The notes beneath the pieces were generated by a model that searched no databases, had not been told where the DNA came from, and saw only the letters and a program-made list of their open reading frames with translations. From Spirochaetae bacterium HGW-Spirochaetae-1 (GTDB lineage Bacteria > Spirochaetota > UBA4802 > UBA5550), in contig PGXY01000001.1 of assembly GCA_002839375.1 (NCBI GenBank), positions 124,001 to 188,000 of the forward strand: 64,000 nt of DNA, given 5' to 3'. Positions 13,287 to 18,501 of this stretch are shown here, one piece after another (the stretch's first letter is position 1; each line of letters opens with the position of its first letter). The position numbers and the translations under genes are program-made.

Positions 13287-15518
13287 CTATTGCATTTTTT
13301 TCACAAAGTCCCGGCTGATCTCTCCGATGCTGTTACAGCCCGTTAGAATCATGGCTTTTTTCAGATCCGTTATCAGGTTCTTGAAATAGAAGGACGTTCC
13401 TTCCGCTCCCATGCCCACGGCTGCGATGGCAACGGGACGGCCGATTAGGACATAATCGGCACCGAAGGCGATGGCCTTGATGATGTCAACCCCCTTGCGG
13501 AAGCCGCCATCAATTATTATCGTGATTTTTCCTTTTACCGCGTCGGCGATCTCTTCCAGGACATCCATGGTCCCCACCATTTCGTCAAGAACCCGTCCTC
13601 CGTGATTTGAAATGATGATGGCACTGGCCCCTGCTTCAGCGGCTTTTATGGCGTCATCGGGATTCATTATTCCCTTCAGAATGAAGGGTAGTTTTGTCGA
13701 TGCTATCAGCTCCTTCAGGCTTTCCATGCCCTTGGGGCCCACGGACTGGTTTCTCATCTCCATGGTTTTAAAGACGACGGCGTCTATATCGACACCCACG
13801 GCAATGGCCCCGGCCTTTTCCGCGGCCTTGATGCGGGTTATTATTTCACTGTTTTCACTGCGTGGTTTGAAAATAGCAATACCCATTCCCTTGTTTTCTT
13901 CGATGGCCTGAAGACCTATTTTATATTTTGTGGGTGTTGCGCCGTCACCGACAAAGCTGAGTGTTCCCGCCTCCAGCGTGCCCTGTATAACGGCCCTGTT
14001 ATATTCCAGTTCATCGATGGCGCCTCCCATGTTGGTGACCGCTCCCGTTATAGGGGCGGCCATGACAGGGAGGGACAGCTTGTGTCCGAGAAATTCCACC
14101 GATGTATCGGGGTCCGTAACGTCATGAATGAGCCGCGTGGTAAGTTTATATCGCTGGAGGGACTCGGCATTTCTTCGGAACGAGGCGCCTGTTCCGGCTC
14201 CTCCCATACCGGGAACTCCCGTGGGACAGTCCTTGCCGTCACAGTTTTTACAGACATAGCAGATTTTTTTGAATTTTTCCCTGGCGGCAAGATAGATTGC
14301 CTCCATGCTTATTTCGGGTTCATCCAGGAGATCAATATTGAGTTTCTTCATGCATTCAGCCACATGAGACTCGGCCTCTTCAAGCGTATCGCCTGTGGCA
14401 ATGATGTGGCCGGCCTTGTCAATATTGCATCGCGGCTGGACAACCTTGTCGCCGATTTTAACGTTGATGAAGATTTCCTCGATGCCGGGAACCTTTAAAG
14501 CCTCTTCAAGGCCGTTGATTTTTTTGACGAAACCCGGCTTCAGGATGATGGCCCGTTCAATGGCGACCTTGTTGATAACCGGTATGAGGTTCCCCGGTTC
14601 CTGGCCCAGGGCGATTTCAATGGCAGCTTTCATCAGATCCACTCCGGTCGAGAGAGGATAGGTGTAGGCTGACATGAATCCACCCGAGAGACGGGCCGCC
14701 AATTCCCCGATCATGGCGCCGTTTTTGGTGACTTTAATATCACCCTTGGCCGCCCCGATATTGATTCCCAGAGCATGTATCCCCTGCCGCATGACATTGC
14801 AGGCGTCATCGAGCATTTTTTTCGAAAGGGCCGAGGGCATGTTATGGCCGATTTCCACAAAATAGGGAGGATACTTGATGATACGGTCGGCGATACCGGT
14901 CCAGGTAATCTCGTCGTTGAATATCATGGCGTCAATGGACAGTTCCGGCCCTTCCATGTATTCCTCTATGAGCAATTCTCCGCTGGGCGAGGCGCTCTTG
15001 GCGTACTGGAAGGCATCAGCCAGTTCATTCAGGTTATTCAGCCTCATCACGCCGCGGCCTCCCATGTTGTCCGACGGCTTGATCACCACGGGGAACTGCA
15101 TGATTTTGCAGGCCGCCTTCGCGTCTTTGAGTGACCACACAGGGAGAAAGCTGGGAGAGGGCACTCCATGCTCCTTGAAGCGCATGCGCATTTTTATTTT
15201 ATTGGTGGCGGCTTCAGCGTTTTCGAATTTTATGCCGGGAAGCTTAAGAGCGTTGGCCACGGCAGCCACGGTCATGGAGGCGTCGGTTCCCACGGTCAGC
15301 ACGCCATGTATGGGGGTTATTTCATTCTGGGATTTTGCTATACGCACTGAGCCTTCAATGTCGCGGGTGCTCATTATGATGGGTATATCTGCATCTTTCA
15401 TGCCCATGGCATTGGTGTCGTAATCGGTGACAATAACCTGATAGCCCATTTTCTTTGCCGTCACAATGACAGGGGCCTGAAGCAGCCCGCCGCCTATGAT
15501 CATGATTGTCTTTTTCAC
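13287..15518 (-). CDS. ATP-grasp / FMN-dependent alpha-hydroxy-acid oxidoreductase fusion
   Basis: A 743-aa two-enzyme protein. Residues 1-395 form an ATP-grasp ligase module: a Rossmann-like pre-ATP domain (MIIGGGLLQAP), the ATP-binding VVIKPSDNMGGRGVM (144-158) and the acidic ELAARLSGG (272-280). Residues 415-743 form an FMN TIM barrel of the lactate/glycolate oxidase family. It opens with a cysteine cluster (C420, C423, C426, C431) as in clostridial members, and keeps the catalytic SNHGGR (637-642), IDGG and LIGRP. ATP-grasp enzymes join a carboxylate to a nucleophile, while the FMN half oxidises hydroxy acids or similar compounds, so a two-step conversion of one metabolite is plausible. 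The start is a GTG with GGAGA upstream. Product and pathway are unknown. Confidence 0.85.
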   Translation of the reverse strand: MKKTIMIIGGGLLQAPVIVTAKKMGYQVIVTDYDTNAMGMKDADIPIIMSTRDIEGSVRIAKSQNEITPIHGVLTVGTDASMTVAAVANALKLPGIKFENAEAATNKIKMRMRFKEHGVPSPSFLPVWSLKDAKAACKIMQFPVVIKPSDNMGGRGVMRLNNLNELADAFQYAKSASPSGELLIEEYMEGPELSIDAMIFNDEITWTGIADRIIKYPPYFVEIGHNMPSALSKKMLDDACNVMRQGIHALGINIGAAKGDIKVTKNGAMIGELAARLSGGFMSAYTYPLSTGVDLMKAAIEIALGQEPGNLIPVINKVAIERAIILKPGFVKKINGLEEALKVPGIEEIFINVKIGDKVVQPRCNIDKAGHIIATGDTLEEAESHVAECMKKLNIDLLDEPEISMEAIYLAAREKFKKICYVCKNCDGKDCPTGVPGMGGAGTGASFRRNAESLQRYKLTTRLIHDVTDPDTSVEFLGHKLSLPVMAAPITGAVTNMGGAIDELEYNRAVIQGTLEAGTLSFVGDGATPTKYKIGLQAIEENKGMGIAIFKPRSENSEIITRIKAAEKAGAIAVGVDIDAVVFKTMEMRNQSVGPKGMESLKELIASTKLPFILKGIMNPDDAIKAAEAGASAIIISNHGGRVLDEMVGTMDVLEEIADAVKGKITIIIDGGFRKGVDIIKAIAFGADYVLIGRPVAIAAVGMGAEGTSFYFKNLITDLKKAMILTGCNSIGEISRDFVKKMQ

Positions 15519-15733: not shown

Positions 15734-16684
15734 ATGGACAGATATTTGACTCTCGAGGCGGTGCGTCTTACCGAAATGGCCGCTCTTCATGCCAGCAGGT
15801 TCATGGGAAGGGGAGATGAGGATATTACCTATTTTTCCGCCTCGGAGGCCATGGTAAATCTTTTGAATACTATGAACGTGGATGTGGATATTGTTATAGG
15901 TTCCGACAGCCAGGAGAGCAAGCTCATGGATGGCACTGTTTTCGGACCGGGGAATGGAGCCAAAATCGATGTGGCGGTCAAGCCGCTGGACGGAAAGATG
16001 ACCTGCGCCAGGGGAGGCCACAATGCCATATCCATTATTGCCGTGGGAAACCCCGGTTCATTCATGAGAACGCCTTCCGGCCATATGATGAAAATTGCCG
16101 TGGGTCCCGATGCCAAGGGGAAGATAGATATAGACCAGACACCGGAAATAAACATCAAGCGCGTGGCCAGGGCCAAGGGAAAATATATCGAGGATATGAC
16201 CGTATGTGTTCTTGACCGTGAAGTGAACAGTAACATGGTTGAAGAGATCCGCCAGACCGGGGCGCGTATAAAATTCATACGTGACGGTGATATTTCCGGT
16301 GCTATTTCAGCGGCCATTACGGATAATCCCATTGACCTCCTCATAGGAGTTGGGGGAGCCAAGGAAGGTGTTCTGGCGGCTGCAGCCCTCAAATGCCTCG
16401 GGGGCGACATGCAGGCGCGCTACATACATGATGACAGACGACAATCCCGTGGAAATGCCGATGATTCCCATATCGATTATGAAAAAATCTATTCCATAAG
16501 TGATCTTGTCCGGGGGAGTGAAATTATGGTGGCGGCTACGGGTGTTACCGATGGGGTGCTTCTCGCCGGTGTCAGGTATTTTTCAGGCGGTGCCGAGACC
16601 TCGTCCATTGTCATGCGTCAGAAGACACACACGGTACGCCACATCAATGCCGTACATCATTTTGATTTTAAACCAATTTTCTAA
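15734..16684 (+). CDS. GlpX-like (class II fructose-bisphosphatase family) protein without catalytic residues
   Basis: The 316-aa protein aligns along its length with E. coli GlpX: the N-terminal helix, GRGD (25-28), IVIG (53-56), VGGAKEGVLAAAALKCLGGD (206-225), and the HTVRHINAVHH C-terminus. The residues needed for metal binding and catalysis are changed. E. coli Asp33 is Tyr33, Glu57 is Ser57, the DPIEGT motif (Asp85, Glu88, Thr90) reads KPLDGK (83-88), and only Glu213 is kept (Glu211). It is therefore unlikely to hydrolyse fructose 1,6-bisphosphate in the normal way, but may still bind sugar phosphates. GGAGG precedes the ATG. A GAF-SpoIIE phosphatase gene follows after 32 bases, suggesting a signalling role. 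Confidence 0.85.
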   Translation: MDRYLTLEAVRLTEMAALHASRFMGRGDEDITYFSASEAMVNLLNTMNVDVDIVIGSDSQESKLMDGTVFGPGNGAKIDVAVKPLDGKMTCARGGHNAISIIAVGNPGSFMRTPSGHMMKIAVGPDAKGKIDIDQTPEINIKRVARAKGKYIEDMTVCVLDREVNSNMVEEIRQTGARIKFIRDGDISGAISAAITDNPIDLLIGVGGAKEGVLAAAALKCLGGDMQARYIHDDRRQSRGNADDSHIDYEKIYSISDLVRGSEIMVAATGVTDGVLLAGVRYFSGGAETSSIVMRQKTHTVRHINAVHHFDFKPIF

Positions 16685-16716: not shown

Positions 16717-18501
16717 ATGGAGACATCTTCAACGGAAACAATGGAGTATAAATTCGATATTTCTCTTGTCCGTTCCATCAATAAATCCATAACTTCGCAT
16801 ATGCCTCTTCCCACTCTTCTGGAAAGCATTCTGGAGGTGGCGAAAACTCTCATTGGTGCTGAATCCTCGTCCCTTCTTCTTACCGACAGGCAAAGCGGGG
16901 ATCTTATCTTTAACATTGTCATTGGAGATAAGGGGGAGATAATCAAAGGACGGCGGGTTCCCCGGGGAAAGGGCATTGCGGGAATGGTTGCTGAAACGGG
17001 CAAGCCGCTCCTGGTCAATAATGCCCAGGATGATCCCCGCCTGTTCAAGGAAATAGACGACAAGTCCGGTTTCTTGACAAGAAACATTATAACTGTTCCC
17101 ATGATCGTCATGGATGAGCTGGTAGGTGTCCTTAATGTGGTCAATTCCAAGGGCAAGGACCGTTATGATTCCGTTGACCTGGAAAAGGCTCAGTATATCG
17201 CCGAACAGGCGGCTATCGCCATCACCAACAGGATGCTCTATGACGACCTGGAAAAAAGGATTGCTGAACTTTCTGCGCTCTATGATGTGGCCAATGCCAT
17301 TTCCCTCACCGGCCATAATGAAGATGTTCTTCAGAATATTTTGTCTTCGCTTTCGGCGTCCATGAATGTCGAACGGGCATCCATCGCCATATACAACCGG
17401 GAGAAAAAAAAGCTTATTCTGGAGGCGATGTGCGGATTTGAAAAAAGGGGAGATGCGAGGATCGAGGTGGATATCGACTCAACCATATGCGGGAAGGTTT
17501 TCAAAAGCGGCGATCCGCTTATAGTCTCCAGCGCCGATGGCGAGCTTCCCCTGCATTTGCGAAGGTACCGGAAAAATTATCATACTGATTCTTTCATATC
17601 AGCTCCCATCATCTACAAGAATGAAACGATTGGCGTTTTAAACCTGGCGGACAAGAAAAACGGCGGCATTTTTGATTCCTTTGATCTCCGTGTTCTTACC
17701 ACCGTGGGAACGCAGATCGCCGAGGCATACCAGAACGCTCTCAACTTTAAAAACAGGGAGGAGCAGCGACGCCTGGCCCAGGAGATAGAGATTGCATCCA
17801 GGATACAGCGGGGAATACTACCCAGAATCCCCGCAGTATTTCATGACCACAGGCTGGCCGCCTACATACAGCCTGCCCGGGAGATCGGCGGCGACTTCTA
17901 TGACTTTTTCCAGATTGACGAAAGGAAATACGGCATTCTCATCGCTGATATTTCAGGAAAGGGTATTCCGGCAGCGTTGTTTATGGGATCGGTGCGCAAT
18001 ATTATCAATGCTGAAAAAGAGACCGATCCCCGGCCGTCGCACCTGCTTAGAAACTGCAACAGGCATGTGTATAATGATTCTGAATCAGGCATGTTCGTCA
18101 CGCTGTTTTATGCCACCGTGGACATGGATACGCGGATCATTACCTACAGCTCCGCAGGACATAACAATCAGCTCCTGGTACGGAAAAACAGGTGTGAAGA
18201 GGTCATTCTCAACACCCGGGGAAAGCCCCTGGGTGTGCTTGATGACCAGGAATTTCAGGAATGCACGGTGCAATATGAACCGGGCGACATTCTGCTTTTG
18301 TACACCGACGGTGTTCTGGAAAACCTGGGCGGCAGTGATCTGGATGCGGATCTAGGCGAAAGGGAACTTTCCAGGGTTGTGTCGGGATTTGCCGACACCG
18401 ACCCCGGTGAACTGATTAATCATCTGAAACTGGTAATGAGCCGAAACCGCATTGCAACGGATATGAAAGATGATATTACTATTGTAGCTGTAAGTCTTTA
18501 A
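16717..18501 (+). CDS. GAF-GAF-SpoIIE (PPM-type) serine phosphatase
   Basis: A 594-aa cytoplasmic signalling protein. Two GAF domains (about 25-180 and 195-355) likely bind small ligands or mediate dimerisation. A helical linker (EEQRRLAQEIEIASRIQRGILP) joins them to a SpoIIE/RsbU-type phosphatase (about 385-594). The metal-binding acidic residues are visible in REIGGDFYDFF, LIADISGKGIPAALFM, LYTDGVLE and DMKDDITIVAV. Such proteins dephosphorylate STAS-domain anti-anti-sigma factors in partner-switching pathways. A STAS protein gene lies far away in this window (53185); a link is speculation. The gene shares a transcript with the GlpX-like gene, whose ligand-binding state could be an input. 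Confidence 0.93.
   Translation: METSSTETMEYKFDISLVRSINKSITSHMPLPTLLESILEVAKTLIGAESSSLLLTDRQSGDLIFNIVIGDKGEIIKGRRVPRGKGIAGMVAETGKPLLVNNAQDDPRLFKEIDDKSGFLTRNIITVPMIVMDELVGVLNVVNSKGKDRYDSVDLEKAQYIAEQAAIAITNRMLYDDLEKRIAELSALYDVANAISLTGHNEDVLQNILSSLSASMNVERASIAIYNREKKKLILEAMCGFEKRGDARIEVDIDSTICGKVFKSGDPLIVSSADGELPLHLRRYRKNYHTDSFISAPIIYKNETIGVLNLADKKNGGIFDSFDLRVLTTVGTQIAEAYQNALNFKNREEQRRLAQEIEIASRIQRGILPRIPAVFHDHRLAAYIQPAREIGGDFYDFFQIDERKYGILIADISGKGIPAALFMGSVRNIINAEKETDPRPSHLLRNCNRHVYNDSESGMFVTLFYATVDMDTRIITYSSAGHNNQLLVRKNRCEEVILNTRGKPLGVLDDQEFQECTVQYEPGDILLLYTDGVLENLGGSDLDADLGERELSRVVSGFADTDPGELINHLKLVMSRNRIATDMKDDITIVAVSL

Follow-up and report, generated by a model that had tools for sequence, protein, structure and literature searches.

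A GlpX-family gene with a replaced active site

The window, as we term the whole 64,000-nucleotide stretch of DNA analysed here, encodes a protein that was originally predicted to belong to the GlpX family, and the open reading frame at 15734..16684 does give full-length matches to both PF03320 (FBPase_glpX; 355 bits over 305 residues, cut-off 27) and the NCBIfam equivalog TIGR00330 glpX (273 bits, cut-off 259.3). Profile match and GlpX fold together place it in the PF03320 sequence and fold family, its nearest solved relatives being the class II fructose-bisphosphatases (FBPases) of F. tularensis, M. tuberculosis and E. coli. No second GlpX was found in the host genome; the window copy is thus its sole GlpX, which rules out a separate active paralogue doing the catalysis. 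The features considered below are the following, GlpX of E. coli MG1655 being the reference for alignment and residue numbering.

15734..16684, + strand: pseudo-GlpX (pGlpX), 316 aa, predicted catalytically dead class II FBPase homologue (PF03320 match, sole genomic copy, fold)
15830..15832, + strand: Tyr33 codon, replacing the metal ligand Asp33; Tyr in 15/15 aligned family members (alignment)
15902..15904, + strand: Ser57 codon, replacing the metal ligand Glu57; opens the degraded EGExDEAPM loop (alignment)
15980..15982, + strand: Lys83 codon, equivalent to E. coli Asp85, the M1 metal ligand; Lys in 15/15 of the family (alignment)
15995..15997, + strand: Lys88 codon, equivalent to E. coli Thr90, the catalytic nucleophile (alignment; PMC10289334, PMC5892879)
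16283..16291, + strand: Asp184-Gly-Asp186, the kept furanose-hydroxyl-binding motif (alignment; role from PMC10289334)
16361..16366, + strand: Lys210-Glu211, equivalent to E. coli Pro212-Glu213; a new Lys adjoining the kept metal ligand (alignment)
16717..18501, + strand: GAF-GAF-SpoIIE phosphatase, the next gene, 32 bp downstream of pseudo-GlpX (Pfam, synteny, orthologue search)

Alignment with MG1655 GlpX bears out the replacement of Asp33 by Tyr, Glu57 by Ser and Asp85 by Lys that had been noticed at the outset, as well as the retention of Glu213 (as Glu211), and the substitutions in the motif blocks hold against characterised GlpX proteins; the metal ligands D33, E57, D85 and E213 of active enzymes therefore read Y, S, K and E in the window protein. 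The original prediction also took the change of DPIEGT into KPLDGK as the loss of both Asp85 and Glu88, of which the former stands but the latter is a conservative exchange to Asp, since M. tuberculosis GlpX has Asp82 at this place (PMC5892879). What it overlooked was the most telling loss, that of Thr90, which is Lys (K88) in the window protein; this residue is the proposed nucleophile of class II FBPases, and its replacement by Ala inactivates the GlpX proteins of M. tuberculosis and F. tularensis (PMC5892879, PMC10289334). Moreover, the entire metal loop 57-EGExDEAPM-65 is gone and Pro212, beside Glu213, has become Lys. In the substrate pocket (IxDGD, R/K-x-R) the window protein keeps R164 and the DGD motif, which binds the furanose hydroxyls (PMC10289334), and its 6-phosphate pocket is altered by the changes of Tyr119 to His and Arg166 to Val. 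A misalignment of the motif blocks can be discarded because they are unambiguous in 35 orthologues and the structural model fits solved structures, the register being uncertain only within the shortened 57-65 loop. As judged from these residues, pseudo-GlpX has very probably lost its phosphatase (FBPase) activity. It nonetheless resembles the canonical class II FBPases (PF03320, TIGR00330; PDB 2r8t, 3d1r, 7txg, 7txb) in full-length homology, with up to 50% identity to canonical relatives, in its predicted fold and in the shared DGD, E213 and R164, and departs from them in the replacement of Thr90, Asp33 and Glu57 (and, in the window, Asp85), the lost loop and the lysine-rich site.

Loss of the catalytic residues across one order

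Our sample comprised 46 genomes of one order of uncultured Spirochaetota (the host and 45 relatives); GlpX is present in 38 of them, three genomes having contig-edge fragments only, and residues were compared in 35 aligned orthologues, 15 of the window's family and 20 of other families. All GlpX proteins of the order that are readable at these sites lack Asp33 and Thr90, a loss common to all 35 orthologues aligned there, and with one exception they also lack Glu57. At position 90 the 35 aligned orthologues have K, H, R or G, with P occurring as well across the order, where position 85 holds K, D, T, N, S or A. Two levels of change can be told apart. All 15 aligned members of the window's family have Tyr at position 33 and Lys at positions 85, 90 and 212, with Arg166 and Tyr119 drifting and His167 changed to Asn; the fragmentary copy of genome G011 has Arg at position 90. 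In the other families Asp33 is replaced by N, S, F, G or L and Thr90 by K, H, R or G, Asp85 persists in 13/20, and Arg166, Tyr119 and His167 are invariant. Within the ligand pocket DGD and R164 are invariant and G210 is invariant or nearly so. The metal site has turned lysine-rich, and the mean net charge over 15 active-site positions went from -7.0 in canonical GlpX to -2.6 in the other families and -1.1 in the window's family (-2.0 for the window protein itself).

The lysines could be taken as the mark of a neo-functionalised enzyme which would act, for example, by altered-metal-ligand phosphatase chemistry or by lysine-based chemistry on a sugar phosphate, a reading favoured by the invariance of Lys85, Lys90 and Lys212 in the 15 aligned family members and by the D85 retained in most members of the other families. 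However, it fits less well because positions 90 (K/H/R/G/P) and 85 (K/D/T/N/S/A) vary across the order, unlike a conserved catalytic residue, and the metal loop is lost in all; we regard such an enzyme as quite unlikely.

In a quick maximum-likelihood tree pseudo-GlpX forms one clade (SH-aLRT 100) whose stem measures 0.58 changes per column. Outside it, GlpX proteins such as those of other Spirochaetota, Thermodesulfobacteriota and Nitrospinota retain the canonical residue set. The public named records with pseudo-GlpX belong to uncultured Spirochaetota, e.g. UBA5550, UBA5368, UBA5763 and UBA2205.

Purifying selection and an intact predicted fold

The suggestion that this protein is a pseudoenzyme and not a product of decay is strongly supported by the clade-wide loss, by dN/dS values of 0.02-0.06 between close pseudo-GlpX pairs and by an intact predicted fold; no internal stops were found in the pseudo-GlpX genes of the order. 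Canonical GlpX has 87 invariant columns, of which the pseudo clade has lost 18, and these losses affect 10/11 columns at the metal/nucleophile site and 57-65 loop vs 8/76 elsewhere (Fisher p = 1e-7). Fifty columns are identical (at least 94%) in both the canonical and pseudo sets, and dozens are near-invariant in the pseudo clade yet not in canonical GlpX. The AlphaFold model of the window protein (pLDDT 88.6, pTM 0.89) superposes on solved GlpX structures at TM about 0.9 (0.84-0.92). With its catalytic motif lost and its fold and purifying selection retained, pseudo-GlpX shows the features of a pseudoenzyme, and the sequence data strongly support the view that the protein is conserved while its active site has been taken apart. 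A non-functional, decaying relic, which the lost catalytic residues could by themselves suggest, is next to inconceivable in view of the dN/dS values, the absence of internal stops in the order and the order-wide retention. A local pseudogene or a sequencing error was likewise dismissed on the grounds of order-wide sharing and dN/dS.

Pseudophosphatases such as STYX are among the known pseudoenzymes (reviewed in PMC10211241, PMC8269279), which pseudo-GlpX resembles in combining a fold conserved under selection with an absent catalytic motif, but from which it differs in fold and pathway. Pseudoenzymes in general are already known; among open-licence papers, none describing a GlpX pseudoenzyme was found.

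Gene neighbourhood and the SpoIIE phosphatase

The next gene had been identified as one for a GAF-GAF-SpoIIE phosphatase, and Pfam confirms this for the same-strand gene at 16717..18501. The original prediction went further, proposing that pseudo-GlpX is a sugar-phosphate sensor that directly feeds this phosphatase in a partner-switching pathway. The two genes are indeed only 32 bp apart on one strand, the SpoIIE gene comes next after pseudo-GlpX in roughly two thirds of the window's family, across several genera, and two genomes (G004 and G007) lack both pseudo-GlpX and the SpoIIE orthologue. On the other hand, the genome search for this pairing revealed that the locus lacks the SpoIIE gene in G012, G017, G018, G019 and apparently G011, and in the first four of these, which retain pseudo-GlpX, no SpoIIE orthologue was found anywhere at E <= 1e-60. 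In G020, G022, G024 and G027 the SpoIIE orthologue lies on contigs other than that of pseudo-GlpX, and in the other families checked it is unlinked to pseudo-GlpX. The adjacency is dispensable, being absent at some loci and restricted to part of one family, and the conserved association expected of a partner-switching component was not found. The proposal is thus unsupported as an account of the core function, and a sensor feeding the adjacent phosphatase appears very unlikely. The genomic association that holds is with class III FBPase, not with SpoIIE.

In other families pseudo-GlpX is mostly placed between genes for a LysM-like lipoprotein and an uncharacterised protein and those for an aminotransferase and a YacP-like NYN protein, with a transaldolase gene inserted at the locus in one of these families. 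A LysM-like/DUF4398 lipoprotein gene and an uncharacterised gene are conserved immediately upstream of pseudo-GlpX there (L071:5433-7980 and equivalents). Separately, the window encodes on its reverse strand (13287-15518) an unusual 743-aa fusion protein, one half of which is ATP-grasp/L-amino-acid-ligase-like and the other an FMN-dependent dehydrogenase, and which shows 62-76% identity across the window's family and in family f3.

Another reading is a structural or moonlighting role for pseudo-GlpX, as a scaffold or protein partner (e.g. in transcription, or with the products of cell-envelope or transaldolase neighbours) that is independent of sugar-phosphate binding. Unlike pseudo-GlpX, SuhB keeps its catalytic residues. 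This protein of the related IMPase superfamily fold has a role outside sugar-phosphate hydrolysis, in the rrn antitermination complex (PDB 6tqn), and it resembles pseudo-GlpX only weakly in fold (TM about 0.34). The drift of the 6-phosphate residues R166 and Y119 in the window's family and the columns near-invariant in the clade only would also be in keeping with a scaffold. Against this, DGD, R164 and G210 have hardly changed and R166, Y119 and H167 are invariant in the other families, and we consider a role of this kind rather unlikely.

Co-occurrence with a class III FBPase homologue

The host genome encodes a PF06874 protein (class III, Firmicute type; L147:6394-8190, or G000 C3:376423-378183), and a class III FBPase homologue is present in all 38 pseudo-GlpX genomes, a few copies being cut by contig ends. 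The motifs SDxHG, GDxxDRG, WGNHD and GHxPV, common to the canonical class III proteins of other spirochaetes, are kept in the copies read. The homologue of the order is divergent, its full-length matches scoring 342-394 bits vs 835-1020 for canonical class III, and none of the NCBIfam FBPase models matched it; therefore, its assignment being based on Pfam and motifs, class III FBPase activity is putative. Class III (PF06874) has a metallophosphoesterase fold unrelated to class II.

Both genes occur in 38 of the 46 genomes of the order, pseudo-GlpX alone in 0, class III alone in 2 (72-73% complete) and neither in 6, an association whose Fisher p of 3e-6, counting genomes, is overstated because the co-absences trace back to roughly two phylogenetic events, G004 and G007 being sister genomes (100/99) and the other four belonging to one family, f3. 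The class III gene thus shows the co-occurrence expected of a functional partner, with about two independent co-absences; it is not adjacent to pseudo-GlpX. G004 has the ATP-grasp/FMN and LexA genes of the pseudo-GlpX neighbourhood, with no GlpX beside them. Outside the order, the 251 genomes compared include 2 with both families, 42 with GlpX only and 35 with class III only, so that GlpX and class III are usually alternatives.

Class I FBPase is absent from the host genome and 43/45 relatives and, occurring in G012 and G027 only, was rejected as the replacement; class V FBPase is absent. PFK-family genes (PPi- and ATP-dependent types pooled) occur in nearly all genomes, including those without either FBPase, and reverse PPi-PFK activity may offer an alternative route.

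A putative regulator of the pathway it once served

The loss of catalytic residues in a protein whose sequence is otherwise almost frozen suggests that pseudo-GlpX is probably a sugar-phosphate-binding regulator of metabolism. The explanation that we favour, plausible though somewhat short of probable, is that catalysis passed to class III FBPase, and that GlpX turned into a regulator of the same pathway which binds a sugar phosphate without metal. The class II enzyme would have lost its hydrolytic activity once, in the ancestor of the order, the class III FBPase (PF06874) supplying the FBP-to-F6P step and thereby relieving GlpX of catalysis. Thr90, Asp33 and Glu57 would have been replaced early, and in the window's family Asp85, Thr90 and Pro212 would all have become Lys. 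The DGD motif that clamps the sugar ring was retained, as was R164, an arginine of the phosphate pocket. Pseudo-GlpX may then bind fructose-1,6-bisphosphate, F6P or a related sugar phosphate independently of metal and without hydrolysing it, the positive side chains of the lysines substituting for the lost metal-ion charge. We infer from the conserved pocket that binding of a sugar phosphate is fairly likely, although fructose-1,6-bisphosphate may no longer be the ligand in the window's family because Arg166 (and Tyr119) are not kept there. The loaded or the empty protein would regulate gluconeogenic flux, and a link between such regulation and class III FBPase can be put forward tentatively, the simplest target being this enzyme itself or its expression. 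In its boldest form, which we hold to be unlikely, the dead class II FBPase would be a metal-independent sugar-phosphate receptor subunit that allosterically controls the unrelated class III FBPase.

A genome with both class II and class III families is not without precedent. B. subtilis GlpX (YwjI) and class III Fbp are, according to the account of Jules et al. 2009 in PMC4535450, both active and functionally equivalent. The order resembles B. subtilis in housing both families in one genome and differs in that its class II member is predicted to be inactive.

GlpX is relied upon to indicate gluconeogenesis. The TIGR00330 equivalog cut-off for class II fructose-bisphosphatase is exceeded by the window protein and three orthologues; therefore, automated pipelines would label an apparently inactive protein the FBPase of the group. 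If pseudo-GlpX is indeed a regulator, it would be a clear case of an enzyme displaced by a non-orthologous gene and then retained as a pseudoenzyme, and active and inactive orthologues would be on hand for comparison within one phylum; if it is a receptor subunit, one FBPase class would regulate the class that displaced it.

Other divergent GlpX homologues

A second GlpX clade, in Myxococcota/Binatota-like records (L093, L095, L100, L102, L103, L108, L113, L114, L117, L119 and L121-L130), has E213 changed to Q and T90 to S, A or P, with D33, E57, D85 and E88 kept; it represents another altered active site, with at least some members possibly inactive. Two families (f11 and f34) of the same phylum as the host carry a divergent GlpX homologue (L181-L198) that keeps all metal and nucleophile residues, but in which the furanose-binding DGD has given way to SGS and DPxEGT to DPLECT; to judge by these motifs, it is probably an active phosphatase with a different substrate. 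Genomes G124 and G164 additionally carry a canonical GlpX. Finally, the canonical GlpX at L175 (G171:C81), from a draft genome, contains one internal TAA that may be a sequencing error.
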